This document shows, in pieces, positions 5,518 to 28,258 of a stretch of 64,000 nucleotides of DNA. Source of the DNA: Lentinus brumalis (taxonomy: Eukaryota; Basidiomycota; Agaricomycetes; Polyporales; Polyporaceae); contig MARA01000017.1 in NCBI GenBank assembly GCA_001792895.1, forward strand, positions 496,001-560,000, read 5' to 3'. The notes beneath the pieces were generated by a model. The model was not told where the DNA came from and did no database searches. It worked only from the letters and a program-made list of their open reading frames with translations. The position numbers and the translations under genes were made by a program. How positions within the stretch are numbered: the stretch's first letter is position 1; each line of letters opens with the position of its first letter.

Positions 5518-5535
5518 ATGTCCAGGGACAGTTGA

Positions 5536-6012
5536 ATCTAGCGGAGAGCGAAGGTGAGGTCATGGATGTTTAGATAACCCAAAGCACATACCGGTTGCAA
5601 GAGAATCCTCGCCAAACGCAACACCGGGAGACGAACGGGGCATGGCGTGTCAAACGTCTGGAGGCGAATCAGCGGCGCATTCACATACGAGGTATAAGGA
5701 ACATACGCACGGTAAAGACAACGCCGCAGGAGGGAATTATGGGTGGGAAGGACGTATTGGAAAGAAAGAGCTACTCGCCTAGCCGGGGCTTTTGAAGCTG
5801 AAAGCCGAGAGGGGGAAGCATGTTCGTAGCGTTTTGAAGCTGAAAGCCGAGAGGGGGAAGCATGTTCGTAGCGGAAGCAATCGAATGAGCGGAAGTTCCA
5901 ACAATGAAAGACGATTCAGATCTCAAGCTCCGTGCCGGTGATCGGTATGCCAAAAGTCATGTGACATGATATTCTCCAAAGCCAACAGGCTAGCCGATTC
6001 AAGTGGAATCGG
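5536..6012. other. Gene-free flank between the Helitron coding region and the inverted-repeat unit
   Basis: I see no gene here. The stretch probably contains the Helitron 5' terminal region, since the Helitron protein is on the minus strand. It also holds a 42-bp tandem duplication (5790-5873). It ends where the long inverted repeat begins at 6013. I found no convincing terminal hairpin or TC/GA boundary. Confidence 0.5.
5790..5873. repeat. 42-bp direct tandem repeat, two copies
   Basis: Copies at 5790-5831 and 5832-5873 are identical by eye. Each begins TTTTGAAGCTGAAAGCCGAG and ends with TTCGTAGCG. The pair lies in the non-coding flank upstream (minus-strand sense) of the Helitron protein. 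Confidence 0.9.
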
Positions 6013-7980
6013 AAAATCCGGGACCCCTGACAGCCATGGGACTTGCACGTGACGTCCTTCCTGTCTCAATCATGTCACGCTCAAGGCGACACGCGAGACA
6101 GGTTAGATGTCAGAGCAAAATCCCAGTCAAAGACATAGAACAAGACTTATCATATTGTCACACGTTGAGATAGCTAAGGGATACAATTGAGACTCGGTCG
6201 GGTCAAAGCACTTGACATACAAAGGACATAGCCGAGAAACCTTACAAGTCATAACACTATCTCAAAATAATCAATGGTCGGGACAGATAAGTAGCGAGTA
6301 CCAAAGCTGTCAAGGCCCTTGACGACGGAAATATACCTACCTTATCCCAATCGTGTCAATGCCCGCGAAATAGGACAACGTGTCACAGTGTCTGACACGT
6401 GCGTGACCGGTAACCTGTCAAGACAAAGGACATCAGTGAGACAATCATCGGATAACGAGAAAGTCAGAGACGGTGACACGGTGCATGTCACGTCTATGTC
6501 TCTAGCCCATCGCAACGCGAGACAATAGAAACATGTCGCAGCCGACGACAATACCGCGACACATTCGTGACAGGTAGTGTGTCACAGGCTGCGACTTGCA
6601 GTCTGTCCGGCCAATTTTGAGCGCCAACGCGCACAAGAGAGCCTCACCGCGCACACATCAGCTGCATGGTGCGCAAGTGAGCCCTATTGTGCTCGGTGCA
6701 GCTCGCAAACGCACCGAGCGCACGCCGTGAGCGCGTCGCGGGCGTGGCCGTGAGGCTTGCAAATGAGGGAGTGCACTGCCACCGCCTCGTGGGTACTCGA
6801 CGCCACTCCGCCTCATCTCGTCACCCTGCCCGCGCTCGCCTCTTTGTCACCGCGCAAGGGCGCCTCGAGAACAACGCGGCTTGCGGCGAGCCCATGGCCA
6901 TCCGGACGTCCCGTCCGAGCTCCCTTGTGCCCGCAAAATCCCGGCAAGCAAAGGTGCGCACCAAAGGTGTACAGGCCGTGCAGCGAAGCGACCCGGCAAG
7001 ATGCCTTTTGTTCACAGTGACCCGCCGGCCGGAGCACAAAGCGTCTCGGGCCGTGCGCATACAAAGCTCAAAGCCACCTCGGCCGAGCTCTATAGCGCAC
7101 GCCGACGCGTCCCGGTGCACAAAGGAGCGCACCAAGCGCACAAGGAGCGCACCCGGCCGTCCCTCTTGTGCACAGCGACCCGCCGGCCGGAGCACAACGC
7201 GTCTCGGGCCGTGCACATACAGAGCTCAAAGCCACCTCGGCCGAGCTCTATAGCGCACGCCGACGCGTCCCGGTGCACAAAGGAGCGCACCAAGCGCACA
7301 AGGAGCGCACCCGGCCGTCCCTCTTGTGCACAGCGACCCGCCGGCCGGAGCACAACGCGTCTCGGGCCGTGCACATACAGAGCTCAAAGCCACCTCGGCC
7401 GAGCTCTATAGCGCACGCCGACGCGTCCCGGTGCACAAAGGAGCGCACCAAGCGCACAAGGAGCGCACCCGGCCGTCCCTCTTGTGCACAGCGACCCGCC
7501 GGCCGGAGCACAACGCGTCTCGGGCCGTGCACATACAGAGCTCAAAGCCACCTCGGCTGAGCTCTACTGCGCATGCCGACGCATCCCGGCGCACAGAGGT
7601 GTGCACCAAAGCGCGCAATCGGCGTCCCGAAGCGACCCGGCCGATGCCTCTTGTGCGCACCCGCAGGGCGAAGCACGAAGGAACTCACAGCGCAGGCTCG
7701 AGGTGAGCCCGCATGCGCACGCCGCGCGCACAGGCCGAGCACCGAAGCACGCCTCTTGCGCGCATCCGCCCGCCGGCCAGAGCATACAGAGGCTCGCGGA
7801 GTGCACACCACGAGGCCCGCATGCGCAAACCGCAAGCGCAGTGAGTCCGCATGTGCACGCCGCGTGCGCAGGCTGAACATCGCAGCGCCGCGGCCGCCGC
7901 CCCATGCCACCCGCTGCAGGAGCACACAGATGCACACGGCGTTCACGAAGAGACCAAGACCAAGCTACAATGCGCATCCA
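6013..7980 (+). repeat. Left long terminal inverted repeat
   Basis: This is the inverted counterpart of about 26768-28258. From 6013 to 7040 the arm aligns base for base without net indel to 27231-28258; stretches I compared, including a 210-bp segment read as 69 codons, were identical. From 7041 the left arm contains three extra 158-bp units. After about 7672 homology continues with more substitutions and fades near 7980. The outer 590 bp is dense in GACA/TGTC. The inner part is GC-rich and dense in GCGCAC- and CTTGTGC-like words. The open frames within it are on both strands of both arms and are unlikely to be genes. Confidence 0.9.
7041..7672. repeat. 158-bp tandem repeat inside the left arm
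   Basis: The word GCGTCTCGGGCCGTGC recurs at 7041, 7199, 7357 and 7515, always 158 bp apart. The copies are nearly identical until the fourth, which runs into sequence matching the right arm. The right arm has one copy only, so the left arm has gained about 474 bp, consistent with unequal exchange or replication slippage. Confidence 0.9.
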
Positions 7981-8829
7981 TCCACTTACGGGATGAGCAG
8001 GGCGTGCGCCGACGGAATAAGGCCTGCGCCACTTGCGCACATCGACACTTCGGCCGAAGCAGAAATGGTACACCTTAGAGCTGTCAGAGACTCCAGCTGT
8101 GTCGGATTGCGCGCGAAGGTGCGCAACTGCGGTAAGCCGACATGCCACCCTTGAATTCGTACACGCACAGAATATATTGCATACAACTTGATACCGACAT
8201 AACGTATCCGGCGACTCTCCGCCGCTCAGAAGGAAATTCGTCTAATCGTCCTCGTCCGTGACCGCGTTCTTCATCATCACGTCGTGAGTCTGCTGGGCTT
8301 GCTCGATCGGTACAGGGTCACCGAAATGCAGGGTGAAGTCGTAGTCAGCGTCGATGATCTGCAGGTTGAGCACAAACCAAGCAGGCTTCGAGGCAAGCCA
8401 GGAGTCGCTATAGCAATTGCGCCACAGCCCGACTGGTGCTTCCCAATCCACCACTTCCGCGCCTGCCGACTTCACGATGCGCTTGCGAGGAGGGCGTCCT
8501 CCACGGCTGCGAAGACCCGCGGCCCAATCTTCGATGTAGCGCTGATCTAGCACGCGCAGGAAGTCCTTCATCCTGTCGCTCTGCCATGCCGTTTCGATGA
8601 TGATGTAGGTGGAGGTGAGCCGCCCAGCAGGACTGTCCGCTTCGTCGCCACTCATGTGGACGGCCGTAAGCTTGGAGAAGAGGTAGTAGTGCTCCTCGAT
8701 GGCATAGATCGCTATGACCCATGCCCGTGAGACAAACGTCTGCAATCGTCCACGTCAGTTCGTTAACAGGCATGCAAAGCATCAGGTTGAATGACTTACC
8801 GTCCTCTTGCGACCGGTGATCTGCTTTTG

Positions 8830-10161
8830 TACTCGTAGGCGCCGAAAGTGTTTGAACGCCCACACTTATGTAATAGACGCCGACGCGCGAAAACAATCAT
8901 AAAACTTTTTCTGCCTTTCCTCCCACAACCACCCCATGCCCCCTCCTGGTACCCATGAATTAACGCCCTCCAAGCGCGGTGCTATCTGTGCACTGCGCAA
9001 GGAGGGCTACTCATACCGCGAAATTGCCCAAAAAATGGGTGTCTCTCTCGGCACTGCTCACTACACAGTCAAACGCGACAAACTCTTTCACACCCGCCAT
9101 ACCCTCCCTCGCTCAGGCCGTCCCACCACTCTTACCGAACGGAAGAAGCGCTTGATCCTCCGTGAAGTCCGCAACAACCGAAAGACACCATACAGAGGCA
9201 TTGCGGAGGCTATAGGGGATGTTACAGAGCGACAGGTGCGCAAGGTTGCCAACTCTGCTGGATACCACCGTCGTATTGCGCGTCGTAAGCCCTTCCTGAC
9301 CCAGGAGGCTGTCAAGAAGCGCTACGCATGGGCACGGGAGAACAAGGGGAGGGACTGGGACACCATCATCTGGACGGACGAGACACAGCTGGAGTTAGGG
9401 AAGAGGGTGGGGCGGGAGCGTGTCACTCGGAAGGCTGGTGAGGAGTTTCTCCCTGAGAACATCCAGCCAACATTCCGGAGCGGCCGAAAGTCTATCATGT
9501 TGTGGGGCTGTGTGGCCCAGGGTCGCAAGGGACCACTCATCCGGCTGGACCTGGAAGAGGAGCAGGAGCAGGACGGTCATGAAGGGAAGAGGAGGGGCAG
9601 GAAGAGCGGGCTCAATGGCGAGCGGTATGTCCACCAAGTTCTCGAAGGCCCTCTTCTCGACTTCTACACCACCATGAACAAGGAGAGGGATGGGCGTATG
9701 CTTGTGGTTGAAGACGGAGCCCCTGCGCACACTAGCCAGGTTGCTAAGGCTGCTCGAAATCGCCTAGGCATACGCTCCCTCACCCATCCTCCAAACTCCC
9801 CTGACCTCAACCCCATTGAACCACTATGGAACCTTCTCAAGACTCGCGTGGGGCGTAGACGGGGAGCTCATAAATCCCTTGATGCACTTTGGCAAGCGGC
9901 ACAATCAGTATGGGCGGAGTTGTCGGAAGAGGAAATGGGCAGGGTGATGGGGAGCATGTCGGAAAGAGTTCAGGCTGTAGAGAGCGCAAAAGGAGGGCAT
10001 ACCCCTTTCTAACTATGTACAATGCAAGGTCACTTGGCTGTCTACCAGACATATGCAACATTTATTTTGTATGACTTGATTTGAATATAAACGACAAGTA
10101 CGAATTCAACGGCTTTTGGGCGCTTATTTGGGCGTTCAAACACTTTCTGCGGGGGGGAGTA
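8830..10161 (+). mobile_element. Tc1/mariner-type element with TA target duplication, inserted in gene X
   Basis: The element runs 8832-10159 and is flanked by TA at 8830-8831 and 10160-10161. The terminal inverted repeats begin CTC at both ends and share AAAGTGTTTGAACGCCCA (8845-8862 on the left; reverse complement at 10129-10146). They differ by a few bases near the tips. Removing the element and one TA restores an open frame in the host gene, which supports these limits. Confidence 0.88.
8936..10012 (+). CDS. Tc1-like DD34E transposase, 358 aa, apparently intact
   Basis: This is a cut-and-paste transposase of the Tc1/mariner superfamily, encoded without introns. The N-terminal third is a helix-turn-helix region (REIAQKMGVSLGTAHYTVKR), followed by a second DNA-binding segment. 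The DDE_3-type catalytic core shows WTDET (first Asp), VEDGAPAHTS (second Asp) and PDLNPIEPLW (Glu). The second Asp and the Glu are separated by 34 residues, the Tc1 spacing. Length is normal for the family and no internal stop is seen, so the copy could be active and recent. It sits on the strand opposite to the host gene it interrupts. Confidence 0.95.
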   Translation: MPPPGTHELTPSKRGAICALRKEGYSYREIAQKMGVSLGTAHYTVKRDKLFHTRHTLPRSGRPTTLTERKKRLILREVRNNRKTPYRGIAEAIGDVTERQVRKVANSAGYHRRIARRKPFLTQEAVKKRYAWARENKGRDWDTIIWTDETQLELGKRVGRERVTRKAGEEFLPENIQPTFRSGRKSIMLWGCVAQGRKGPLIRLDLEEEQEQDGHEGKRRGRKSGLNGERYVHQVLEGPLLDFYTTMNKERDGRMLVVEDGAPAHTSQVAKAARNRLGIRSLTHPPNSPDLNPIEPLWNLLKTRVGRRRGAHKSLDALWQAAQSVWAELSEEEMGRVMGSMSERVQAVESAKGGHTPF

Positions 10162-13100
10162 TGCGCCGACGAGCGACCTTGGCCGGATCCGGGGGTTTCA
10201 CCTGCTGACGCCACACCAATCGGACATGATCCATATGGCTGTCCAGAGCGCCCGCCACTTGGTTCATCGTGAAGTACCGTGTAGGTATCGGAGGCCTTCT
10301 GTACGAACCGCCGGCGACCGACTCGAGGAAATGGCGCACGAAGAACCCACGAGCTTCGCGATTGAATGCGGTACGCACCCAAGGACGATCGAAGTCGATA
10401 CGGAAATTTTGCCGAGTAAAAAAGTTGCCTTTGTGCGACGTGTAGGCGGCCATTTCCTCGTCGGTCAATCGCGGGCACTTCTGACCAATTTCCACGAGCT
10501 CTTCACAGCCCAAAAGCCAGAGCAAGTGGGCACGGACCGCGCCCTACGAGAGACATCCATCAAAAAGACATCCGAGACATTTGGGGCGGCGTATGCTCAC
10601 CTGCAAGCGGTTCACAAACGTGCCCTCGACATCTGCAGCTTGCGCCGCAGGCATCGCGGCCACCATGATAGCCTCCTCTTCATCGGTTGTTGGTGCAATG
10701 TCAGGCATCTCCCACCCGTCCAGCGAGAGGATGGGCAATGTCGGGGGCGCCTTCTTCTTAGCCGCAGTCCTGCTGGGTTTACTCGGTGTGTCAGGTTGGC
10801 CAGTACGGTCCTCACGATCCTCGTCCTCTTCCTCGTTGACGTCCATGAGTTGCTGCGTGAAATCTTCGCGCACTTCGGCGACCTTCACCATGGCGATGCG
10901 CGCCGCCTTCGACTTGATGGAACGGCCACCTCGCTTCGGTGTCGGGGCGGCACCCTTAAGGGGCTTCTGCGGGGTCTCCGGCGTCGCCACAGACAAGTTT
11001 CCGAGCTTGTGATTCAGCTCATGGAGGCCATCCAATAACTCTGATCTGTGAGCGCATCAGCCGCAATGTGACAAAAAAACGGACGAATTCACACTTACTG
11101 TACTCGCCCCTGTGCGCCCAAACTTTCCTCTATCCCGTCGATACGGTTCATTAACATGACTGTCAAGTGCGACTTCGCTCCGGGGGTTTGCTTGCAATCT
11201 GTGTCAGCTACCTATGCGCATGCAAGCACCAAGACACGACAAACCTGCGCCGCGGGAGACCGGTGAGGAGCAGGGGAGGACGCCACTGTTCCGGGTGATT
11301 CGTTGGTCGAGGGGTGTCGGAACGTTGACGAGCTTGGTTGCGGGGGCCAATGAGACCGCATCATCTCAGCTTCATCCGGCATATGCTGGTCCTGTACGAT
11401 ATGATGAGCAGTTGAGGTAACAAGCAGGTATTAGACACTGACCATGTCTACGAGCGACGTCTTGCTTGTACCAACTTGCTCGTCCGGACGAAGACCAAGT
11501 TGCGACATCAGAGCGAGGCGCTCTTGAACGCCCAGCCCATGCCACACACGGACCATCCCGTCTAGGGACTGAGCATGCGGAGGAGCATCTGAGCACTGGA
11601 CGCCGAAACCGCCGTGTACGGGCTGGCCAGTCTGCCGCGCAGCTGGTATTGGGGCAGGGATATGCGATGGCCGGGTTTGCGGAGGAGCATCCGAGAACTG
11701 GACGCCGAACCCGTCGTGCACGGACTGGCTAGCCCGCGGTGCAGCTTGCATACGGGCGGAGGCTTGCTGAGGAGGATGCGAGAACTGGAAACTGAAACCG
11801 TCGTGAACGGGCTGGCCAGGTGGCGGCCCAGCTTGCAACGAGGCGTGGGCGTGAGCGATGGGAGGTTGGTGGGAAATGGGTGCTCCGAAACCATCGTGTA
11901 TATGCGCAGGTTGTGCGCCAGGAATTCCGTGACCACGGAGCTGCGTAGTGTCATAGTGCACACCGTACTGGTTCACGGAGCCAGACTCTATGCCGCCGAT
12001 CTGATGACCAGGACCAGGACCGCCAGCATAGCCAGACGCTTGTGCATGGGCCGGCATCTGGTACTGGTCCCACCTTTCATGGGAAGCTTGCGCACCGCCC
12101 TGTCCAGTATGATTCTGATATTGCGGTTGCTGTTGAATCAGCATGCCTGCAGGATTCGACTGAGAGTAGACGAAGTGTTCCGGAGTGTGCTGGGAAGCAC
12201 TGTACTGCCGCCCGTGATGCTCGGCGATCGTGCCGCTCATGAAGGTCGCCGATCCGGGCGACACGCCCATGTAGTGCTGGGAGCTGGAGTGGTGTTGAGA
12301 AGGAACCAGCAGGGGCTGCGACTGCTGAGGCCGTTGCTGATACTGGGACGGCACGCCAGTAGCGCGATGTGACTGGGAGAGTTTCTGAGATTGCGGGGGG
12401 GCGGATAGTTCGTGCTCCTGGTGAGATGGCCCGGCGGCGGTCGGGAAGGAGGGGGATAGTTCGCGAGACTGGAATCTGACGGTACATTTCGTGTAAGTGC
12501 ACGCACGCCCGCAGCGGCGGACGCGGACGTCGTCGGTGCAGCGGCGAATGAAGACGCCGACTGAGTCGCAACTACGGCGACGGGAGCGGATGCTGTGGGG
12601 TTTCTCGCGGACGTGCCGGTCTGTTCGAAGTCGACGAGCATGGCCTCGGGTGGAGAAGGACTGTCGTTCTGAATCTCCAGCGGACGTCCCGCGGCCGCTC
12701 TAGCGGCTTCCTCCGCTTCAGCATCCAAGGGTGTCTTCCCAAAAGCCCCCAGAAGGTTGCTGCCTGCTTCTGCTCGCTGAATGAGTCGGGATAACGCGAA
12801 CAACTGTCCACAATAGCTTACCTGCGCTTCCACCGGTACCGTCATCGGCGTGTCCTCGTCCATTGTCTGCTGACGTCGTATATGTACCCTCTGGCGCGCT
12901 TTCACTGGTAACGGTCTGACGGCGAGAGGACGGGCCCAATCCTGCTCCATTTCAGCACCAGACTGTGTGGACGTGATATAGATATACAGACACGTACCGA
13001 TGGGTGGTTCTTGACGTTCTTCTCGTTAACGAGTTTGGGGGTCGCGGACTCGCGCTTGCGGCCGGCGTAAATCTCTCTGGGCGGTGAAGGGCAGTCGGCG

Positions 13101-13622
13101 AGGCGTGTTGCGTCCTGCGTTGCGCTGTGGTTTTCGGAGACTGTGGGTGCGCTTGCCAGTGGCTCGGACGATGGGGCTGGCTGCTCTTCGGATCCTCGGG
13201 CCGTACTTGCCAGAGGTACTTCCGTGGAACTCGGCTGAGGGTTGGGAGCCGGTGGTTCTGCGGATAGAGCAGAGTGCGCCACAGGGTCCGGAGTGGGGAT
13301 AGGTTGTGGTTCAGGGTCTGGAGTGCTCATAGTTGCGGAGAGGAAGGCGCGCCGCCGGGGTAATGTAGGCGGGCGCTAATGCCAAAGCGATGAAGGACAA
13401 AGCGGAGTTGGCGAGGGTCTTTGTACTTTGTCAACCTTGAGTTTAAGTCGTAGAAGCGTGATAAGCAATGAAATCCACACAAAGATATGCAAAAGATGTT
13501 CACTATGCATTGAGGAGGAGAACAACATCACAACGACTACACGGAGCGCATGATTCGCTGGAAGTGTCCAAAACTTTTAGCTAACGAACGCCCACTGACA
13601 ACTGTGTACTCACTGAGAGCTT

Positions 13623-14709
13623 CTACGTCGGTTGCTCACCATGCACACGGACGCGGTAAACGCAAGTGGCCGCGGCACCCCAGTTATCAACGATCTCAAG
13701 CACAACCTGTCCAAAATCGAGGGCGAGTTCCTGGACGATGGTGCGTACGGGAAAGGTCTGGACGAGCACGGGGCTATGGATGTCGTATGTGAACTCCGCC
13801 AGTACCACAAACAGTTCCGCCTCGCCCTTCACGATGATCGGAGGTGCGAGGCTTCCAACGGTCAGATTCGCTCGCAGTTCTTGATGAAACTGATGATATA
13901 GGCCTTCGTTCCGGGCACCATCGACGACACCCCACAAGACCATCCCACGCGGAGCCTCGCCCGGCTCAGCAGCAACTTCGGCAGGAATGTGGTCGATGCT
14001 GACGTGAGTGGGGTATATGAACGTCGGAAGCGCTATTCCCAGTTGACCGTGCGTCGTCGGAATGTGCCAACAACGCCCTATGAGGTTGTCATCGGAGAGA
14101 GCAACGCCCGGAGGCATGCGATGACGCGAGGATGTGAGCTCTTGAGAGACGATTGCCCCGTCGACAGCCAAGGCATAATCACGGAGCAGAACTGGTCCCC
14201 TGCTCTGACGGGCGAGGTAATCATCGATGTGCTTGAGGAGCTCAGGGGACAATGTATGCGGGTTGGGTTGGGTGAGAGGGTAGTACCAATCGGCAAGCGA
14301 TGCGAGGCGCGCGGTTGTGAAAGAGGATTTGGTGATAACAAGCATTAACCAGCCATCCCGAACGATGAGGTAAGACACAATCACTATCAGCGGAAGCCAA
14401 GAAGCGAGTCGCCCGACGAAACCTCCAGCAAGGCCTGCACACCTTCGGGATCGCGGCGATGGGGCGCTCACAGTGGAGGGAGATGGTTTCGGAGTGTTCG
14501 GAGAGGGTGATGAGAGTCCTACAGAATTCCCCTGAGCGGGAGGGCCATCTCGCCATCGCACTTGCTTCCGCACTACGCCAAATTGGACGTTACATGAGAG
14601 GGAACCGGTTTGGCGAGAAGTGTGAACACATACCATTGACAGGCTGAGGATCGACTCCAAACCGCTTGGGGTTGAAACGCGCCAGACGCTCTTCATCCAG
14701 GCCAGGCAT
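13623..14709 (-). CDS. SUN-domain (Sad1/UNC-84) membrane protein, about 341 aa, two exons
   Basis: SUN proteins sit in the inner nuclear membrane and bind KASH-domain proteins of the outer membrane, linking chromatin to the cytoskeleton. Exon 1 (14709-14634) starts MPGLDEERLARFNPKR; a 61-nt intron follows; exon 2 (14572-13623) ends RVRVHGEQPT. After a Ser/Pro-rich N-terminus there is one membrane segment near residues 79-98 (SWLPLIVIVSYLIV). The C-terminal SUN domain, roughly 160-338, shows DYALAVDGAIV, GRCWHIPTTHGQLGI, VSIDHIP and the closing NWG...TCVYRVRVHG. The reading frame is intact. I chose this start because the splice joins cleanly in frame, unlike the longer unspliced frame starting at 14807. 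It is cargo of the inverted-repeat unit; neighbouring genes X and Y are on the same strand. Confidence 0.88.
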
Positions 14710-14874
14710 GGCAGAGTGCAGTGCGATGGGTGAGCAACGTTATGGGAGGCCTGTCCCTGTCGGTGGCGAAGAGGAACATTGACAAGGTGGTGCGCGCGAT
14801 CGCGCACAGCCCGCGCTCAGCGCTACGGACGATGTTCTCATCACGTGATTTCCAACGCGGTGGCACCATTGACA

Positions 14875-16327: not shown

Positions 16328-16900
16328 TGCGCCGTGCTAGGGGCGTACAATCCAAAGGCCCGCCTCATGTAGACGGATTGGAATAAGCATTGTCTGCTGT
16401 CAGCCTTGACACGACGTGCACCGCCAGAAAACCTGGTCGGTGAAAGGGATGTCTCGTCTAGGCGGTGGAAACCTTTCCTTTGTTTTCGCGAGCGCTTAGG
16501 CCCCGAAACGGTGCAAGGTTAGCCCAAGCCTGGACTAATATCACATCCCTTTCATCGGCCGGTTTTCTCGTCGTGTGAGCTTGCCGTCCGGGAAGAGGAA
16601 ACAACGTTGTTAGGGAGGGAGCGAAGTTTAGCCCGCCCCTGTGGCACAGCCACCCGACCTAGTCGACGTCAAACTGCTCTCTACGTTCACGGTATTTTAC
16701 AACGATGCAACCGGATACTAATGGAGCACTGCATGCGGAGCCTGCGACCATGTATGGAATAAGACGGCAATGCAGGCAAACGTGACGGCCCAAGCGAAGC
16801 ACCCCGAGCACAGTGAAGTCGAAGATCGCTTGTACACCTTGTTAACCGGCTCTGGCTGGTTCGGGGAGCTACTTGACCTGCATAAGGTTGTTTAGCAAAG
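16328..16900. other. Gene-free interval with a MITE-like inverted repeat
   Basis: No supported coding sequence lies between the start of Y and the end of the WD40 gene. The interval contains a pair of imperfect inverted repeats (see 16426-16568). A minus-strand open frame at 16687-16935 overlaps the WD40 tail and has no recognisable features. Confidence 0.5.
16426..16568. repeat. MITE-like inverted repeat of about 143 bp
   Basis: The left arm 16426-16452 (starting AGAAAACCTGGTCGGTGAAA) pairs with 16543-16568 (ACATCCCTTTCATCGGCCGG onward) with a few mismatches and about 90 bp between. Short outer homology (ACACGACG) resumes beyond a 9-bp gap on the left side. It could be a small non-autonomous element or a degenerate pair of termini. 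No target duplication was identified. Confidence 0.6.
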
Positions 16901-18162
16901 TCAAGCTCGTCGAGAAGGATATACATTAGCCTCACGAGTTTCCTGATCTATGGTCTTCCATATAATGCAAGGAGAAGGGCTGTCAACATTCATCACGCCC
17001 GCCGCGATGAAGAACTCGTCCGTTTCGGGGACATAATGGGCCTGTCAGAAGTATCAGCGGTGTGCGTGTACAGCGACAGAGTATCCGCTTACCGCAACAG
17101 CAAGAGCCTCCGCTTTCTTGGGAACAGGGAGTTCGTATAATATCCGAGGGTCTGAAGGGCGGTCCTCCTCCTCGCGATCGAGGAACCCGACCACATCCCA
17201 TACAGTAAGTTGTCCGGCAGTACTCCCCCAAGCAGCGCCAGACCTCCGTGAATCCAGATAGCCGGAGTAGGGGCCTTGCGGCGAATGCTGTGATTGATCG
17301 TGCAGACTGGGTCCCCGGAGTCCAGAGAGTAAATGTCGAAACCGCGACGGGCGTTGGAGACAGCAACGGCCGCCCACTCTTCAGAGATGCTCGCTCGAGT
17401 ACTGCGCGCAATCGGATCAGCAAAGAGCCACATTGCCGCGTCAGCACACGTACATCAAACCATTGATTGGAAATGTGCGGAGCCTGCCCCAAGTCCGCGC
17501 ATCCACAAGAACAATCCCGTGGTGAAGATAGGTCACAGCGAGAATAGACTGATACTGCTCTGACGAGATCCAGTGGAGGCTCGTGACGATGATGTCCTTC
17601 GCTTCGTTATGCGAGTTCTTGGGAGGGTCGTCAATGTTGACCTCGTGTATGTATCGATTAGCTGGGCGCAGGCAACGGTAAACATCCAGCATTAGGCTTG
17701 CATCAGATCACAACACGTACCGGTGCTATCCCACTGCCAGATTGACAGCTCCGGACCAGCTCCCGAAGCTAGTCGTGCGTCCTTGGGAGCGAGACATTCA
17801 ACAGGGTACTTGTGACAAAAAACACCATCTATCTCAATGGTTTCCTGAGAAGCCGGAGGTCAATACGGTTGAACGGTGAGCGAGGAAGGCATACACACCC
17901 TGGACACGGACATCCACGCGACATGTCCATCGCGCAGGCCGCATATGAGACCTGGAGATGTGTGAGGCCACACCAGCTCCAAAACTTCACTCGTTCCGGA
18001 GAAAACGTAGCACAGAGCTCCTGTTTCAACGTCCCATACGCAGATTCGCCCATCGAGGCCGCCAGTAGCAAGGTAGGTGCCGTCCGGACTGAATACAACC
18101 TTCGCTATACCCTTGGTGTGTCCGTTTGCAAGCTTGTGATGTTCCTGATACTGCAGAACCAT
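16901..18162 (-). pseudogene. WD40-repeat protein, five exons, one apparent frameshift
   Basis: A beta-propeller scaffold protein of the WD40 class. The start at 18162 gives MVLQYQEHHKLANGHTKGIA, then a textbook repeat (VVFSPDGTYLATGGLDGRIC ... VWDVETG). Exon 1 ends at 17899, exon 2 is 17844-17721 (YPVECLAPKDARLASGAG ... LSIWQWD), and exon 3 starts at 17661. Later blades include EEWAAVAVSNARRGFDIYSL and IHGGLALLGG. The last recognisable blade (GSTAGQLTVWDVVGF) is in another frame; the switch is at a run of five C's (plus strand 17225-17229), where one extra base would restore the frame. The last exon ends VYPSRRA at 16901. It may be decayed or a homopolymer error. It lies head-to-head with the small gene at 18713. 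Confidence 0.78.
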
Positions 18163-18712
18163 CGTGCAAGACAGGGAAGTGGGAGAGAAGCGACGAGATG
18201 CTGTGGAGGCGTGTGTAAGCGAAGAGACAAACACTTGCGCCACTTACAGGTCCACACGCGTCGCATTTAGCGCGCCAGTGCGCGGTCACATGATCGCCGG
18301 CTGCGCTGGGCTGCGCGCAACGCGTGCACGGGTGGCGCGCACGTCGTCGCTTCAGTCTCTCATCTTGCCCCGCAGCCTACAGTATTCAGCCAGCGATGCC
18401 TCTTGACTTTCTTCTGTGTTCTGTATCTCCTACATCCAATCGTCTAGCAAAGTCGTCTGTCGTGGGGTGCGCATGCGAGGCTAACGGCTGCAAACATCGC
18501 AGCCTCGTGGGTGTTCACAAAGGGTACGCTCCGTGAGTAGTCTTTGTTGAGCAGCCTATATAATTCCCCTCTCTTAGCTTCAAGCTCGCATTTCTCTTAC
18601 TCTGCCCACCCGCCCTCCCGTCCTCCGCCACTCGACCTTCGTCGCCGTTCTTCTCGTGCCTTTCAGGTCTCATCCTCCTCATCTCGACTCCATTCCACCT
18701 ACGTAGATCGCC
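18163..18712. promoter_or_regulatory. Shared divergent 5' region of the WD40 gene and the small gene
   Basis: This 550-bp interval separates two genes transcribed away from each other, so it probably holds both promoters. A GC-rich stretch with many GCGC and TGCGC words lies at about 18265-18345. A TATA-like CTATATAA lies near 18554-18563, about 150 bp upstream of the start at 18713, followed by a pyrimidine-rich leader. No gene is seen; the open frames here look like shadows. Confidence 0.45.
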
Positions 18713-19362
18713 ATGGCTATGTATGAGTACGTCCCTCTCTAGCAGGCTGTTCTCCGGGAAGTCCGCCGTGGTATACTCATGTCGTGCCATGTTCAGCCGG
18801 GCTAACATCGAGTTTGACAATGCGTCGGTCCTCTATCAGGTGAGAGGGACTGGCCCCGCCCTCCGGCCTCCCATCCACGCTCGCGTCATGATTGCCCAGT
18901 GCGGTCCGGATGCCTGTAAGTACACCCTTTATGCTCTTGCTCTTTAACTCATGGAGTCTAGACGGCATCATCCTCTGCGAGCTCGTCGAGGAGAATCTGT
19001 CCGCCAACCCGCCGAAAGTGATTATGTCCAAGCTCATCTCAGAGGACATGAGGGTCGATTTCAGCGAGACTGTGAGTCCTGAGCTCGCTCGCACCCCACC
19101 TGCGTTCTGATGATCAGCCTTCCAGGAAGATCTTGTTGTCATGATCTTCGACGGCACCTCCCGCTTCATCAAGTTCGCAGATGACATATCGTACTGGAGC
19201 TTCGTGTCTGCCATAGCCGGGGTCAAGAGCATACTCGCCGCCCGTCGCGTCGACATCGAGGAACTCCTCGACATGGTGATTAGTACTGTACCCATGGTCG
19301 ACGCCGTTGATCCCAAGGGCCCCCCTCGCTATCAGACGGAGGGAGCTGAGGAGGCACAGTGA
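18713..19362 (+). CDS. Small unrecognised protein, 159 aa, four exons
   Basis: Four exons join in frame with consensus splice sites: 18713-18726, 18797-18915, 18962-19071 and 19126-19362. The product begins MAMYDRANIEFDN and ends GAEEAQ. It contains GPALRPPIHARVMIAQCG, IILCELVEENLSANPPKVIM and VVMIFDGTSRFIKFADDI. It looks like a compact, soluble alpha/beta protein with no signal peptide or membrane segment. The tiny first exon (14 nt) is typical of basidiomycete genes. No lesion is visible, unlike several neighbours. I do not recognise the family. It is cargo inside the inverted-repeat unit. Confidence 0.72.
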
Positions 19363-19693
19363 GAGCGGAGCATTGCGTTCCCTCAGGCTCCTCGATAATG
19401 ATCTCTCCTTGGTCTCCCTCCCCCTATGCCTTTGTCTCGCTGGCCTGTACTAGACTCCACGTTGTACCCTTTCCGTTGTATTCTCTGTAGAAATGCGATC
19501 AGCCCGTTGTGTCATACGCGCGATGGAGACGCCCGCCCGCTGCATTGCCTTTGTGCTAGCCCTTACTAGCCTCGCCTCACTCGCCACCCGCAACGGCCGC
19601 CCTCCACGCCACTGTCCTTATAACTTCACGCTTTTAAGTTTCCACACGGCTTGGTCAAAGCTCTTTGTCTTGCCGTGGCTCCTCGTGTCGACA
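19363..19693. other. Interval without a supported gene
   Basis: This follows the stop of the small gene and precedes the LRR/F-box-like gene on the same strand. A short open frame starts at 19493 but shows no recognisable features and may be the 5' part of the next gene. Confidence 0.4.
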
Positions 19694-20815
19694 ATGGCAG
19701 CCGCTGTCTCTCAACACGCAACTCTCTTTCTGAGCCACCATCCACAGTATGTCCCTCGTTCTCGCTCACAACAACGTAGTGCAGGTGATTTTCACTGTCT
19801 CTCAGCTGTTCGAAGGCACTGCTGATCGCATACTATCTGATAGGTGGGCCTGCGCCTCACGTCCCCCCCTAACCTCGACGCTTTCTGCGACCGCGCCACC
19901 TCCAATCCACGGGTTGGAAAGAGGTTGGAGGATCTCAGGATAGTCATACATGGACAGCTTTCTAGAACATCCCTGCGCCGTTGTCTTGACCTCGCGCCCA
20001 ACCTTGTCGACCTCGACCTCCTTCTCTCCAACCCCGACGTCCCCAGCCTCCTGGATGGCGTCCTGCTTCGAGATCTCCGCTTCTTCAGGACCAACATCCC
20101 CCACCGCCTCCTCGTCAGCTTTTTTGCTGCTCATGCTCGACTGTCTGTTCTCATGTTGGACGTTTGCGCTGAGGCCGAAGACCTCTGTCCGCTGCGCGCG
20201 ACCCGTCTTCAGTACTTGAAGTGTATATCCGGTCCAGGCCCCTGCGTCGCGCAGCTTCTCAATCCCAGTGTGTCACGCCTCACGATGACGTCGATGGGCA
20301 CCGGGGACAGTTCGCGCAGCACTTTGCTCGTGCTAACTTCGGTCCCGTTCCAGCTCTCCGCCCTGTCGACCCTCACCATCGACTTCCATGCCGACGAATA
20401 TGACGTCCTGCACAGCATCGTTACGAGTTGCCCGAACATACGCAAGTTGAAGCTCCTCGAGATCCCTGGGATTGCGGTGAGCATTACTCTTCGATTCCGA
20501 CCGTGCGGACTGATAGACAGCTGGGTGATGGTAGCGTCGTCGTAAATCGAGTCGTCGTGCATGGAACAATGGCGCGATGTGGTCCAAGACGTTACGGTCC
20601 CTCCCGCTGCTCGAGGAGCTCATGCTTCGCACGGCGTCTTCCCTCGTTCGCCGCTCGGCTTGCGAAGACGAGGAGCGCAAGGCACTCATGCACTGGATCA
20701 CCGGGGTACGCTCAGCTACGCGTGGCAGGCCGAATCCGCACCCCGTGTTATATCACGTTGGAGTGTGGTACTGCGCCGAGGACACAGACGGTGGTGTCGT
20801 AACGCACTAGTCGAA
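19694..20815 (+). pseudogene. Leucine-rich, F-box/LRR-like protein, probably frameshifted
   Basis: The readable core (from about 19841) is Leu-rich with repeated amphipathic units: LEDLRIVIHGQLSRTSLRRC, LAPNLVDLDLLLSNPDVPSL, LQYLKCI and CPNIRKLKLLEIPG. Further downstream comes LPLLEELMLRTASSLV. This is the style of the large Agaricomycete F-box/LRR families that recruit substrates for ubiquitination. Just upstream, VSQLFEGTADRILSD is in a different frame from VGLRLTSPPNL without an obvious intron, suggesting a one-base lesion near 19840. The 3' end needs an intron of about 110 nt (20477-20586), and the last exon is ambiguous. No N-terminal F-box motif could be confirmed. Confidence 0.5.
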
Positions 20816-21149
20816 TATGAGCGGATCCTGGAGTCGCTCATCCATCGTGATTCACCCAGACGCAGGCTACGACTTTGTTTAAGTGAGTACTCTGAATTAC
20901 CACGGTGGTTCGGGCTGACTCCGTAATGTAAGATCGTCTGTGACCTCACGACGCGCTCGTCGTACGCTATAGGATGGCGCCGTTGTTGTGAGCCTGTTTC
21001 TGGGCACTGTTCCCTAGCGACGCTTTGTACTACATAATCTCAACTGTTGTTAGTCCTGCTATACAAAGAGCTTTGCCGAGTACCTGGAATGTCGCGTGCG
21101 CAGCGTTCCAGCCACATTGTCTGCCCCCACCCACTCACAGCTAGCCTTC

Positions 21150-22577
21150 ATGTCTGCGTGCTCAACGCCCTCCCTCTCTTCTCTCGATTTGGATTATATG
21201 TTGCGTCCAGGTGATCTCACTAGCTCTGAATTGTTGATCTCCAGCGCCGAGCTCAGACTCAGAGTCGAAGACAGCGCCGACGAGCGCGAAGACGAGGACC
21301 CCGCGAGCGCTTTCGAGCCACTGCTTTCCTCAGCCCCTCCATGACCATACTCGCCCTCTATAACTGCCAGTCCGGCACCCTCCATCGCATACGACTGTCA
21401 TCACGGAACTCATAATGACGCGGACGACGCTATGAAGAACTGGCCATCGTCAAACGATGAGCCACTGGGTAGCTGCTTTCCACCGTGCCCTGCTTCGACG
21501 CCGGACCTCCCGAACCCAGACAGGACTGTCTCGTTCGGTCCGTATGACAACTTAGAAGGATCCGAGCTTTACGCCACCATCCTGGGTGAACTTGACGTCT
21601 TGAGCTCGTCGGCGGCTGGTCTCCTCCATGGCGTCGCCAAGTTGGTTTGTGTGCATGTAAGTCTCCGCCTCATTTGCCCGTTTGTGGGCTGGGCTCAATA
21701 TCGACTCTGCATAGGATGAGAAGGGCAGTATTCGCACAATTTCCATGGATAAACGGGTTTTAGAGAAGCTGGCCAATGTGGACAATACGCTGCGCACTGC
21801 TCAGAATACACTCTTGCGCCGGGATAGTGAGTTAACAGTGATGTTATCCCTGTACGCGAATTGACCATGTGCAGAACGCACTGGGGACGCAATCAGGTCT
21901 ATCCGAAGGCAGGAGATAACTCGCTCCGTACGTGATTTGCGCAACAAGCTCGCATCCGCGAAGTGCAACATCGCCAGTCTGAAGGCCAGAACTTCGCGGG
22001 ACCAGAAGCGAATCGTCAAGTTGGAGGAGGAGCTCGCCACTCCTGTCACCACTCCGAAGCTGTCCCAGCCTAGTCCTACGGTTTCGTCGAGCTCTAGCTG
22101 CTTTTCAGTTCCGCACGATCGCTCGTTGCCCTCATCGGCCACCCCCGCTAGTCATGGTCAAGCTTCCCGCGCCGCCACTCCAGGCGTCCGCGTTATATCT
22201 GACAAGGTATGGGCCGTTGGTCACAGCCTCTCAGTCTTCTACACACAACGGAACCAGGCTTCCACCGGAGCTACAAGTTCGGAATCTTTGCGTGAATCTC
22301 AACCGATGGACAGCACTCCCGTATGCGTTGCTCCGCTCCTACATAACAATCAACGTAAGCTGATGTACTTCTCGACCCTTTCCAGCCTTTAATCATACTA
22401 CCGCGCAAGCCACGACGCGCCATTCTAGCTGCGGTGGCCTTGTCCTTTGCGCTCTGTGTCTACGTTTTCTTGTCGCACCGCCCGCGGGTGGCCAATGACC
22501 AACCTGTGCATACCCCTCCTCTCACGAGCCACCCCATCTGGGAAAGAGCGAGATCTCGGAAGCCGGTTTCACCGTGA
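21150..22577 (+). pseudogene. Coiled-coil, tail-anchored (KASH-like) protein with one premature stop
   Basis: Four exons (21150-21656, 21715-21826, 21875-22320, 22386-22577) join in frame to 418 codons, broken only by a TGA at 21342-21344 (codon 65). The middle is a predicted coiled coil (RDLRNKLASAKCNIASLKAR, DQKRIVKLEEELA), followed by a Ser/Pro-rich linker. The last exon holds basic residues (PRKPRR), one membrane segment (AILAAVALSFALCVYVFL) and a tail of about 33 residues ending RKPVSP. This is the layout of a KASH protein: cytoplasmic coiled coil, C-terminal anchor and a short luminal tail. The tail lacks the classic PPPX ending. A SUN protein is encoded 6 kb away in the same element, which makes the idea attractive, but it is inference. 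Confidence 0.6.
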
Positions 22578-22799
22578 TGTCCGGTTTGCTGAGGCCCTTT
22601 GTAGCGTACTTATTCCCATAGGTACAATAAACAATAAGGTGTTCGTTCTAGTTCAGGCATCGACCGTCCATCAAAGCCGCCATCTGATGCTCGATCTCGC
22701 AATCAGCAAGTTCCAAGAGACGTCGGCGTCGTTCACGGCACTTACTTACTCCTCGACTTACCTTCCCCGACCACCATCGCCCTCATCTGCGCGGCATTC

Positions 22800-25700
22800 A
22801 TGCCAATCTGTCGATGCAGCACATGTATTCTCTTCAAGTACTGCGATCCGCGAGGAGAGCTCCAAGCTGGGCAGAAGAAGTCGTCGCGAGAATACAAGGA
22901 GCACATGGCCCGCGATAAGATTCGTGAAGCGGCAACCGTCCAGACGCAGAGCAGGGTGGAGAATGCCATCCTAGCACAAACACTGGAAACAGATACGTTG
23001 AACTCCTCTGCTCGCCTTCCTGTGCGCCACAGCGACGAACCTGGTCGTCCCGAGCGTGTCGCATCTCCATCCCCCGTCGTGAGCATCAGCGGTCTCCATT
23101 TTGCAATCTGAGCTCACTGTCCCCCTCTCATGCCCATTGCCACAGGATCGACATGCCGTTCGTGAACGCCTGGAATTGGTCTCCCGCCTCAACTCCTCTC
23201 GAGATCTGAGAGCCCGCTCACTTCCGTCTCACCCTAACCTCGTTTTTAAGACTGTTCCAACATCCTACTTGGACCTGCCGAGCGAGCTGGACGCTCACAA
23301 GGGCGACAACACGGCCTTCTGTGCGTATCGCGACTGGCTTCAGGAGCAGCTGTGGAGACACGGAGATCTTCCGACTGTAGGGAACAAAGACGCAGATGGT
23401 CGCTACGCTGGCGAAATCAAGAAGATACGTGCCGAACTGAACCGTCTTGGTCAGCTGAGGGATGCAGTTTGGGGTCGCTTGATCAATGAGCACCTTTTCA
23501 ACTTCGACGCCGATCCCACGGCAGGGGAGCCGGACGCCGTGAAACTAGGTAAGCCCTCTTCACTACCGTCATTTTGACATATGGTAACCTCCCGCTCCAG
23601 TGAACAAAGCACGAACTCGGACTGATATGCCTCCCTTCATACTCGCTGCGCTACTCATGGCCACTATCTTCCACTCCATCGCGACGGTCTCATTCCCGCA
23701 AGTGGAGTATCTTCTGGCAACACTGCGCGTGGTACTCTTCGGAGCCTTCACTTTCGGCGTCGTTGGCCGCATGGCGACACGCTCGAGTCTCACGCCCGAT
23801 CAGTTAGCCCTCCTAAACGACATTCCTCTCGACATCCGCACTATCATGGATCGCCTCGGCGTTGAACCCGAGATAGAGGAGTATGCCTGTTGTCCGGACT
23901 GCTTCTCGATCTACCATCCTGATTCTTCCAACTCCGACAATCCCTATCCGCACCATTGCACAAGTCAGGAGGCCGACCAGCCTCAATGCGGGGCACTGCT
24001 AGTGAAGAAGCAATGGATCAAGCCGAAGGGTAGCAAATCGGCCGAGGGGCGGACGGTATTCCGCCCGTTGCGTATCTATCCCTACCGCTCTCTGAAGAAG
24101 TGGCTCTCGGAGCTTCTCGGACGTCCTGGTATGCTGGACATTCTGCGAAAAGCCTGGGAGCGCATGCCGACGACAAGCTGCAATGATATCATGGACGCCC
24201 CCGCCATCCGCGAGTTCCTTGGCCCAGACGGAACGACTCGGTTTTCCGTCCAGCTCGACGGCTCCGTCCACCTCGTTTTCAGCATGTTTATCGATTGGTT
24301 CAACCCGTGTGGCAACAAGCAAGCTGGGAAGTCTCACTCCATCGGAGTGATCTACCTGGCTTGTTTGAACCTTCCTCCTCACCTTCGTTATCGTCCGGAG
24401 AACATCTACCTCGCCGGAGTGATCCCTGGACCACGGGAGCCAAACGTCTCCGAGATCAACAGCCTCCTCAAACCGCTCATCGACGAGCTGCTGGAACTGT
24501 GGAGTCCTGGCGTCTGGGTACAGAAGTTGATCACGGGACGAGGATGCTTGGTCCGCGCCGCGCTCATACCCCTTGTCTGCGATCTACCGGCGGTTCGCAA
24601 GGCCGCAGGCTTTGGCGGTCACTCCGCTAATTACTTCTGCTCATTCTGCGACCTCACCCTGCCTCATATCTGTAATCTCAACCGCGCCGAATGGCCGCCT
24701 TCCCTAGGGTGGCGTGAGCATCTCAAGCTGGCACACGAATGGAAGATTGCGCCGACGGCCGTACAGCGGAAGGCCATCTTCGACACCCATGGAATCCGTT
24801 GGTCGGAGCTCCTTCGACTTCCCTACTGGGACCCGACGCGCTACGCGGTCCTGGACGTCATGCACAACCTCTTCCTGGGAGAACTCCGTCAGCATTGCCG
24901 CGAGGTGTGGAAGATTGGCCGGGGTAAGCAGAAGGGCGGTGAGAGCAGGAGCAGTGCGAATGCATCCGTGCACACTCCGCAGGACCAGATGGTTCAACTG
25001 CAGCGTGTCCGCACTGCTGTCGAGAACGGTGCCGAGAACAGCCTCACCAACATGAGGAAGGACTATCTCTCGGCCGTCGCGCGTCACAATCGTGTGATTG
25101 GGCACACTACGAAGGAGCCAACTCGCCGCCAATACGCCCAGGCGCTGTTGGATTGGGTGAGTTTTCAGTTGATATCTGACTACTCTAGGTGATGGCTCAC
25201 GTATTCACTCATGTATCGTTGATCAGGTTCGGGCGAACGGCATCGGAAGATTGGAGTTGCCGCCTGCCATGGAGGAGGCATCCAATCAGTTCCGCCTGCC
25301 TTACGATCAGGCGCCGCCGGAGCCTCCGCGCTTCAGATTCGGCGCCGACGACCTCGCCCAAATCCAGCAAGACATCAAGGACACGATTTTGCCTTCGTGG
25401 CTCGAGCGAGTTCCCTCGAACTTCGGCTCCGGCAAGCATGGCAAGCTCAAGGCAGATCACTGGCGAACTGTTTGTACGGTGAACCTGGTGATTACTCTTG
25501 TACGACGATGGGGTACCGCCGCCTCGTCCCCTGAACAGCTCGATGCGCTCAAGAACTACATCCATCTCGTCGTCGCTACCGATCTCGCGTCCCGCCGTTC
25601 CATGACATCCTCTCGCGCGGCCGCTTACGAGTACCACATGGAACAGTACCTTCAAGGGCTTCGACGCATTTATAACGCAACCCTTGTACCCAACCAACAT

Positions 25701-26685
25701 ATTGCTCTCCATCTGAAGAAGTTCCTCGACGCGTTCGGACCTGTTCACGGCTGGTGGACCTTCCCTTTCGAGCGCTACAACGGCCTGCTACGACGTGTGA
25801 AGACGAATTTCAAGCCAGGTGAATCGTACTCTCTTCCACGACCGTGTTGGATGCATTACTGATTACAACATTCACGCAGCTGAAATGGCACCGACCATGA
25901 TGCGGTATTTCTACATCGGGTCCGCATTGCGATGGCTCATGCGTACCATGCCATGGCCCCCCGTAGAAGACTTCCAAGTTATGTTGCACGTGTTCGAGAG
26001 AGCGTTCAGCGACCGAGTACGCGGTACACGAGTTACGGACATCCTGTCGTCTGGAGGAGCTCCCACCGAGGCCGAATTCGCTTACGACCGTCGCAAGGAG
26101 ACCCCGCTGACATCCCAAGTTTACAACGCTCTCCTCCGCCTCGTCAGTAACTCCGCTCCAACGCGTTTCCAAGCCGCGGATAGTCCGGTCAATGATGGGA
26201 CGGTGCGCCTTCACCCTGCCGGACAGTTCATCTCCGCCATCCACATTCAAGGGATTTGCTTCGCGACTGGAGACCAAGGTCTACGCGACTCGTTCGTGAC
26301 ATTCAGGACTGAGGGGAACAACGTCGTACGCGCTGGACAGATATCACAAATCTTCTACCATCACCGCGTTGAACTCGGCCGCGGCATCACACAGCCGTAC
26401 CTCATCGTGAAGGCGTATACGCGCTTGACGAGCTTCGATGCGATGCACGATCCCTACAGGAAATTTCCTCAACTCGAGTCGGAGTTGTACTATGACAAGT
26501 TCGACGAGATCGAGCATGTGGTTCCCGTGGAGAGTGTGGTGGCACACTTCGCTGCCTTCAAGTATGTCCCGGATGACATCAACCAAACATGCGTCGTCGC
26601 CAGAAGCTTGAACAGGGTGCGTTGTACTTGGCTCGCCATCTCGGGATCATCGATGTCTGATCTTCTTGCTCGCAGTCCTAGGTGA
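22800..26685 (+). CDS. Tnp2-family (EnSpm/CACTA-like) transposase, five exons, intact frame
   Basis: The product is about 1,200 aa. Exons 22800-23078, 23146-23548, 23601-25156, 25227-25818 and 25880 onward join in frame. The N-terminus MPICRCSTCILFKY is the usual start of this Agaricomycete family. Acidic catalytic positions are visible in DWFNPCGNKQAGKSHSIG, CDLPAVRKAAGFGGH and FPFERYNGLL. A Cys pair (CSFC) follows the second one, and the family-typical DPTRYAVLDVMHNLFLG lies in exon 3. The end is either an unspliced stop at 26685 or, with one more intron (26614-26675), TAG at 26679-26681. The gene ends about 80 bp before the right arm. Plavaka-type elements are related. I saw no CxC domains of the KDZ group. 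Confidence 0.9.
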
Positions 26686-26767
26686 GTATAAGATTCATCA
26701 TATTTTAAGCCACTGAGGAACGAAGCCCGTGAGTAATTGTACCCTGCTGCCATGTGCCGGTACGCGG

Positions 26768-28258
26768 CTGAGTGCGCATGGTAGCTTGGCTGGGGTTTTA
26801 TCGAGCTGGCGTGAACGCTGCGAGCCTCTGTGTGCTCTGGCCTGCGGGCGGATGCGCGCAAGAGGCGCTCGGCCTGTGCGCGCGGCGTGCGCATGCGGGC
26901 TCGCCTTGCGCTTGCGTTTGCGCATGCGGGCCTCGCAGTGTGCACTCCGCGAGCCTCTGTATGCTCGGCCAGCGGGCGGATGCGCGCAAGAGGCGTGCTT
27001 CGGTGCTCGGCCTGTGCGCGCGACGTGCGCATGCGGGCTCACCTCGAGCCTGCGCTGTGAGTTCCTTCGTGCTTCGCCCTGCGGGTGCGCACAAGAGGCG
27101 TCGGCCGGGTCGCTTCGGGACGCCGATTGCGCGCTTTGGTGCGCACCTCTGTGCGCCGGGATGCGTCGGCATGCGCAGTAGAGCTCAGCCGAGGTGGCTT
27201 TGAGCTCTGTATGTGCACGGCCCGAGACACTTTGTGCTCCGGCCGGCGGGTCACTGTGAACAAAAGGCATCTTGCCGGGTCGCTTCGCTGCACGGCCTGT
27301 ACACCTTTGGTGCGCACCTTTGCTTGCCGGGATTTTGCGGGCACAAGGGAGCTCGGACGGGACGTCCGGATGGCCATGGGCTCGCCGCAAGCCGCGTTGT
27401 TCTCGAGGCGCCCTTGCGCGGTGACAAAGAGGCGAGCGCGGGCAGGGTGACGAGATGAGGCGGAGTGGCGTCGAGTACCCACGAGGCGGTGGCAGTGCAC
27501 TCCCTCATTTGCAAGCCTCACGGCCACGCCCGCGACGCGCTCACGGCGTGCGCTCGGTGCGTTTGCGAGCTGCACCGAGCACAATAGGGCTCACTTGCGC
27601 ACCATGCAGCTGATGTGTGCGCGGTGAGGCTCTCTTGTGCGCGTTGGCGCTCAAAATTGGCCGGACAGACTGCAAGTCGCAGCCTGTGACACACTACCTG
27701 TCACGAATGTGTCGCGGTATTGTCGTCGGCTGCGACATGTTTCTATTGTCTCGCGTTGCGATGGGCTAGAGACATAGACGTGACATGCACCGTGTCACCG
27801 TCTCTGACTTTCTCGTTATCCGATGATTGTCTCACTGATGTCCTTTGTCTTGACAGGTTACCGGTCACGCACGTGTCAGACACTGTGACACGTTGTCCTA
27901 TTTCGCGGGCATTGACACGATTGGGATAAGGTAGGTATATTTCCGTCGTCAAGGGCCTTGACAGCTTTGGTACTCGCTACTTATCTGTCCCGACCATTGA
28001 TTATTTTGAGATAGTGTTATGACTTGTAAGGTTTCTCGGCTATGTCCTTTGTATGTCAAGTGCTTTGACCCGACCGAGTCTCAATTGTATCCCTTAGCTA
28101 TCTCAACGTGTGACAATATGATAAGTCTTGTTCTATGTCTTTGACTGGGATTTTGCTCTGACATCTAACCTGTCTCGCGTGTCGCCTTGAGCGTGACATG
28201 ATTGAGACAGGAAGGACGTCACGTGCAAGTCCCATGGCTGTCAGGGGTCCCGGATTTT
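26768..28258 (-). repeat. Right long terminal inverted repeat
   Basis: Reverse complement of the left arm. 27231-28258 matches 6013-7040 without net indel. 26768-27230 matches the inner left arm with one instead of four 158-bp units and with scattered substitutions. The inner edge is the block around 26768-26826 (starting TGCGCATGGTAGCTTGGCTG), matched at about 7940-7980. The arm begins right after the transposase gene. Confidence 0.9.

Follow-up and report, generated by a model that had tools for sequence, protein, structure and literature searches.

Giant, cargo-carrying transposons of fungi are mostly known as Starships, which belong with a tyrosine recombinase, and short terminal inverted repeats (TIRs) are the rule in EnSpm/CACTA transposons, an ordinary cut-and-paste superfamily. 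Members of EnSpm/CACTA (CMC/CMCT) have CAC..GTG tips and a 3-bp target site duplication (TSD), and fungal EnSpm and Plavaka elements may carry a gene for a TET/JBP enzyme beside the transposase (PMC12730594; this and the other articles given by PMC number are cited from excerpts). Larger members have been described in other kingdoms: the red alga Chondrus crispus has EnSpm families of 16-20 kb with 4-5 open reading frames (quoted in PMC6431247), and Tgmt* of soybean is a 20.5-kb CACTA element with a tnp2 transposase, subterminal motifs and one large gene named in the excerpt (PMC2613891). Among basidiomycetes, eight Starship elements have been reported in Tremella fuciformis (PMC13066641). Here we describe a 22.28-kb unit of the basidiomycete Lentinus brumalis, most of which lies in a 64,000-nt stretch (the window) at positions 496001-560000 of contig MARA01000017.1 (C46), within a 53.4-Mb genome assembled as 136 contigs; positions given without a contig are those of the window. 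Its CAC..GTG tips, its TSD of 3 bp and a Transposase_21 gene with an open frame make the unit a member of EnSpm/CACTA. We consider it very likely that the whole is one transposon whose interior holds a gene set, with a SUN-domain gene and a second gene that we call gene A, tied to one clade of transposases.

The unit shares with other EnSpm/CACTA elements its CAC..GTG tips, 3-bp TSD, Transposase_21 and motif-rich subterminal regions, and differs from them in having arms of ~1.5-2 kb and several genes other than the transposase. Its tips are CACGG..CCGTG, whereas those of Plavaka are TGT..ACA or CATCA..TGATG (PMC12730594). Like the TET/JBP-carrying elements it is a CMC-type transposon with a further gene beside the transposase, but it has a SUN-domain protein instead: a Pfam scan of 19 frames, out of the 83 of at least 100 aa that overlap the unit, found neither a TET/JBP nor a tyrosine-recombinase family. 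The Starships are likewise giant cargo-bearing fungal transposons, with a tyrosine-recombinase captain in contrast to the Tnp2 transposase and TIRs seen here. The Chondrus families match the unit in size and multi-gene content within the superfamily but come from another kingdom, and Tgmt* matches it in size, tnp2 and subterminal motifs but has one large gene named. A first, sequence-only reading of the window held that CACTA elements normally carry one or two genes, which is too strict in view of the algal families (PMC6431247). Large EnSpm elements and TET/JBP cargo are already in print, and the part that appears new is the recurrent SUN-domain gene in EnSpm; a literature search, judged partly by titles and abstract openings, brought up no publication that connects SUN-domain genes with transposons.

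The inverted arms of about 2.0 and 1.5 kb that the sequence-only reading proposed were confirmed. Positions 6013-7135 and 27136-28258 are 99% alike across 1,123 nt, with 11 mismatches that all fall within the inner 94 nt, the outer 1,029 nt being identical; once indels and differing numbers of a ~158-bp inner subrepeat are allowed, the arms reach ~7947 and ~26807. Arm comparison and genome search thus place the left arm, minus its outer ~16 nt, at 6013-7947 (plus strand); TGTCA/GTCACG motifs abound in its outer ~590 nt, and its inner part is GC-rich and holds the subrepeats. In the outer 590 nt there are 14 copies of TGTCA, where shuffled sequences have 1.1 on average and 5 at most. The right arm (26807-28274, minus strand) is complete and ends, read on the minus strand, in the tip CACGGCGTGCATCCCT.

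The ends themselves had been put at 6013 and 28258, and both had to be revised. The true tip is CACGGCGTGCATC, 16 bp beyond the proposed right end, so that the element stops at 28274 (CCGTG|CGC). These outer 16 nt are present on the right (28259-28274) and absent from the left arm in the window; on the left they are located at C46:481824-481839, 20.2 kb upstream, with the tip at C46:481824 preceded by CGC. The left tip lies outside the window because a Helitron2-type element has inserted within the left terminal repeat, ~16 nt from the tip, and position 6013 marks this cut. Damage to the left arm by deletion or rearrangement was considered and dropped, as the missing tip and TSD stand 20.2 kb upstream with the Helitron in between. 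The two copies of the TSD CGC are at C46:481821-481823 and at 28275-28277 (plus strand).

The flanks preserve the site in its unoccupied form. To the right of the element lie three tandem units or part-units of ~8.7 kb (28275-47447), 92-98% alike, and the element is inserted at the start of the first, the other two keeping the site uninterrupted: the second unit reads ...CAACTTTCACC|CGCTGGTGAG at 37175-37177 (plus strand), and a further uninterrupted copy is at 45837. A genome search with the empty-site sequence as query returned the missing left flank (C46:481723-481823, 80% alike), where the left junction reads ...CTTTCACCCGC followed by CACGGCGTGCATCCCTAA. The left tip and CGC found upstream, together with the empty-site copies in the tandem flank, show the element to be a single insertion with the TSD CGC. 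They also bear on the suspicion that the structure is an assembly artefact or a local inverted duplication, which is what 1,029 identical bases in two arms 20 kb apart might suggest: against it stand the matching 3-bp TSD, the two empty-site copies, the Helitron in one arm only, the differing subrepeat numbers of the arms and the finding, on a different contig, of an independent element whose tips agree, and we regard this explanation as extremely improbable.

That independent element came from searching the genome, as the sequence-only reading had advised, with a terminal 20-mer, which occurs twice in the window (0 in 100 shuffles) and has four matches in the genome, two of them in the window and two on contig C78; allowing up to three mismatches added none. 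The C78 element (C78:91671-96913) is thus the one further locus with both ends. It measures 5.2 kb and has 888-bp arms (3 mismatches) and the TSD TGT/TGT; its 20-mer matches span 91687-96897, its arms start with CACGGCGTGCATC, 16 nt farther out than the 20-mer, and its tips are the CACGG..CCGTG found at C46:481824 and window 28274. Its subterminal enrichment in TGTCA is weaker (6, against a shuffle maximum of 5). A 13-nt stretch of the tip has 15 matches in the genome versus 1 for the reversed control, and 4 of the 15 belong to these two elements (two on C46, two on C78). Twelve 13-nt-tip loci were extracted, the matches at C89, C104 and C126 being outside that set; the 8 others among the 12 lack an AAAATCC continuation and were taken as chance, three of them (on C55) having one common context.

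The transposase gene adjoining the right arm, which had been proposed to be intact, has an open frame. A gene model supported by Pfam (22800-26685, plus strand) gives five exons and 1,211 aa with no internal stop, the last residues being uncertain, and the product matches PF02992 Transposase_21 at 66.6 bits (cut-off 28.6). Two Asp residues and a CxxC motif (D459, D555, C574 and C577) are unchanged in 11 of 11 aligned paralogues, and are candidates for the first two catalytic acidic residues and for the CxxC that EnSpm/CACTA transposases have between the second Asp and the last Glu.

Two interior genes matter most for the interpretation. The first (13623-14816, minus strand) is a 397-aa open frame with an approximate start, identified as a SUN-domain protein by Pfam (Sad1_UNC, 59.1 bits) and by a structure-chain search, in which solved SUN-domain chains match at 1.1e-9 to 5.5e-8; one strongly hydrophobic segment (2.13) precedes the SUN domain. 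The second, gene A (10136-11157, minus strand), is defined by ab initio prediction and by its recurrence beside SUN and transposase genes elsewhere, and it has no Pfam family above cut-off. It is probably interrupted, since its predicted end falls inside a nested Tc1 element, and 8242-8655 (minus strand) may be its other half. A structure prediction of the conserved part made without an alignment had a mean pLDDT of 46.8 and was not used.

We asked how often these genes and the transposase meet elsewhere in the genome. SUN genes were found at 16 loci by protein search (18 matches) and at 16 by the Sad1_UNC profile (29 matches), for a union of 17, of which C1:2200403 is the only one added by the profile and also its best-scoring locus. 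With the core of the transposase as query there were 40 matches, which we merged into a clade of 19 loci with a match of at least 117 bits and an outgroup of 12 weaker loci. At 12 of the 17 SUN loci (the window and 11 others: two on C1 and one each on C35, C52, C59, C61, C65, C67, C70, C76 and C104), a clade transposase lies within 27 kb, and the two genes are divergent in all of these pairs except that on C65, which has the other order. None of the control elements came as close as 30 kb to a SUN gene: 0 of 12 distant Tnp2 genes, 0 of 8 Tc1 elements, 0 of 14 miniature elements and 0 of 8 Helitrons, these lists comprising the best-scoring candidates only and excluding the window copies. Random placement produced a mean of 0.33 SUN-transposase proximities and a maximum of 4 in 20,000 trials, under a model that takes no account of the clustering of mobile elements.

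Gene A shows the same association. It occurs at 18 loci (19 matches), and 15 of them have a SUN gene or clade transposase close by: at 10 there is a same-strand SUN gene no more than 3.7 kb away, and at 5 others a clade transposase at a distance of up to 9.3 kb. Both SUN and gene A are present at 11 of the 19 transposase loci, where the genes span 12.7-36.6 kb. A further gene, gene E, was first met beside the C76 transposase and has DNA relatives at 5 other loci, 4 of which adjoin a SUN gene or clade transposase; a search of the window for the C76 gene E gave nothing at E ≤ 5. Counting SUN, gene A or gene E, 15 of the 19 transposase loci have at least one. This linkage of SUN, gene A and clade transposase at many loci suggests that the SUN and gene A cargo is not accidental and that large, multigene EnSpm elements carrying SUN genes may form a family. 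The proposal of one ~22-kb Tnp2/EnSpm unit with kilobase arms and interior genes stands, two of the interior genes being found again next to transposases of the clade.

The simplification in the random-placement model is one of several points that weigh against this interpretation. Gene A is unlinked at 3 of its 18 loci and varies in position, by SUN at 10 loci and by the transposase at 5; no SUN gene lies within 30 kb at 7 of the 19 clade transposase loci; and three SUN loci on C1 are without any of these partners. Clade transposases at C16, C61 and C126, at least three in all, have stops in the matched stretch. If nested elements and transposase are set aside, the cargo matches no other DNA of the genome, so that there is no sign of recent co-amplification. 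The sequence-only reading made its proposal depend on another locus or species in which these two ends enclose interior genes; among the loci whose ends were read, cargo occurs with these exact ends at the window locus, and the only other locus with these ends, on C78, is cargo-free. The C78 transposase frame starts within its own arm, from which it appears that long arms may grow into the interior of an element.

Some of the contrary evidence would fit a linked host cluster or segmental duplication, containing SUN and gene A, that is a preferred landing place for Tnp2 elements. SUN and gene A stand together with no clade transposase within 30 kb at C115:1482383-1487114 and at C78:18.8-22.5 kb, the latter in a group that also includes gene E (C78:14576-22488). 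At C76, where we inspected 3.2 kb beyond the transposase, there is a GC-rich repeat block resembling the inner arms of the window element, and ~1-kb GC-rich repeats (220045-221112 and 247266-248765), one copy just beyond gene A, flank the gene set in direct rather than inverted orientation, which is not what a plain terminal inverted repeat would give. However, a landing place would leave unexplained the one divergent orientation common to 11 of 12 SUN-transposase pairs, and in the window SUN and gene A are both inside the TSD-bounded unit; moreover, the best-scoring profile SUN locus, C1:2200403, is linked neither to gene A nor to a clade transposase. We find this alternative quite unlikely. 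Common termini and a TSD around the gene set were seen at the window locus, with C76 covered to the inner repeat block, and other SUN/gene A loci would be expected to have similar ends if the gene set travels with the transposase clade.

It is also conceivable that a small, ordinary Tnp2 element has been swollen by nested insertions or local rearrangement, with the interior genes as chance passengers. Insertions do accumulate at this locus. A Tc1/IS630-like transposon (8829-10161, plus strand) carries a transposase gene at 8936-10012 with DDE_3 and HTH_Tnp_Tc3_2 domains and has 99-100% copies at C95, C49 and C51; this gene is that of a nested invader and not cargo. A 166-nt miniature EnSpm-like element (16410-16575, unstranded) has ends CACGACG..CGTCGTG, the TSD TGA and 14 related loci in a genome search, and the Helitron mentioned above sits in the left arm. 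In addition, the relative on C78, whose tips agree, is only 5.2 kb long and free of cargo. Yet the two nested elements between the arms explain only ~1.5 kb of the interior. Moreover, eleven further clade transposases have a SUN gene nearby, and gene A accompanies a SUN gene or a clade transposase at 14 loci besides the window, in a preferred order. Chance accretion is therefore unlikely in our view, and we return to the reading of the unit as an EnSpm transposon with its own gene set.

For that transposon, the following course of events would account for the locus. Binding of the tips and motif-rich arms by the transposase, cutting at the tips and staggered joining over 3 bp are expected for the EnSpm superfamily. 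The Tnp2 transposase of the unit would recognise the CACGG tips and the outer arms rich in TGTCA/GTCACG, and probably acts on these ends. The whole unit (window 6013-28274 plus the 16-nt left tip 20 kb upstream) would have been excised as a cut-and-paste element and inserted in the first of the three tandem units, making the 3-bp duplication. Its interior was presumably aboard at that time, as a SUN/gene A gene set that accompanies the transposase clade and not as host DNA captured by chance. The Tc1-like, miniature and Helitron2 elements would have landed later, the last of them splitting the left terminal repeat.

A role for the SUN protein at the nuclear envelope is suggested by its domain. 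The clade transposases contribute a second hint: they have hydrophobic segments, which in the window transposase precede the CxxC region, the best 19-residue hydropathy exceeding 1.7 in 10 of the 11 aligned proteins, the window transposase included (the 11th is aligned partly), and a second hydrophobic segment follows in the same 10, exceeding 1.6 in only 5 of them. On the strength of the SUN protein and these segments, we tentatively propose a giant, presumably fungal EnSpm lineage with a SUN inner-nuclear-membrane protein in its core set and a transposase with conserved segments of membrane-spanning type, in which transposition or the choice of sites might take place at the nuclear envelope; judged from predicted proteins, this is a possibility that we rate well below the transposon reading itself. 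A Tnp2-based family with a conserved multi-gene load would mean that an ordinary cut-and-paste superfamily can turn giant and retain accessory genes, and a transposon-borne SUN protein would connect mobile DNA with nuclear-envelope tethering. Such units could be overlooked, because their arms are a kilobase long and vary among relatives, and because nested elements insert into them in turn.

The remaining interior of the unit is less well defined. The sequence-only reading counted seven genes besides the transposase; interior genes are indeed present, but one of the seven is the nested Tc1 transposase and several are ab initio predictions only. Much of the rest of the interior is taken up by a predicted low-complexity gene (11431-12863, minus strand; ab initio only), a WD40-repeat gene or gene remnant (16983-18243, minus strand) with a WD40 match in the frame 17863-18243, a predicted gene of 157 aa (18789-19362, plus strand; ab initio only) and a predicted leucine-rich gene (19749-20810, plus strand; ab initio, with Pfam below cut-off). 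Beyond the element, a STAS domain is encoded downstream of the tandem units (48772-49581). Given this domain, the tandem flank is perhaps a region of sulfate-transporter type, and the insertion neighbourhood would be one in which the tandem units adjoin a transporter-type STAS-domain gene.

The element nested in the left arm is itself large. Its right part, which is its 5' end, occupies 1-6012 of the window (minus strand), and the whole spans C46:~481840-502012, ~20.2 kb. A RepHel frame of 1,379 aa (1079-5218, minus strand) matches Helitron_like_N at 91.8 bits; its match to the beginning of PIF1 helicase, at 24.6 bits, falls just short of the cut-off of 25.9. Diverged relatives (64-74%) of window 1-6012 are found at several other places in the genome. 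Read on its own strand, the element starts TCCGATTCCACTTGAATCGG, with a hairpin predicted at the tip; its first 11 nt, TCCGATTCCAC, occur again in inverted form ~35 bp inside the 3' end, and its insertion target is the T run of GGATTTTAGGG, with no clear target duplication. RepHel, a 5' hairpin, asymmetric inverted repeats (one at the 5' tip, its partner close to the 3' end) and insertion at T runs are the traits of Helitron2 (PMC3627910, PMC5148889), and the nested element shares them. Nine of its frames have no Pfam family at E ≤ 0.01. In the ~14 kb beyond the window there are open frames without a Pfam match, and the element may for this reason carry cargo of its own. At ~20 kb it differs from the Helitron2 elements of Fusarium, which measure 5-11 kb (PMC5148889); Helitrons elsewhere reach 14 kb in fungi and 39 kb in maize (PMC6431247).

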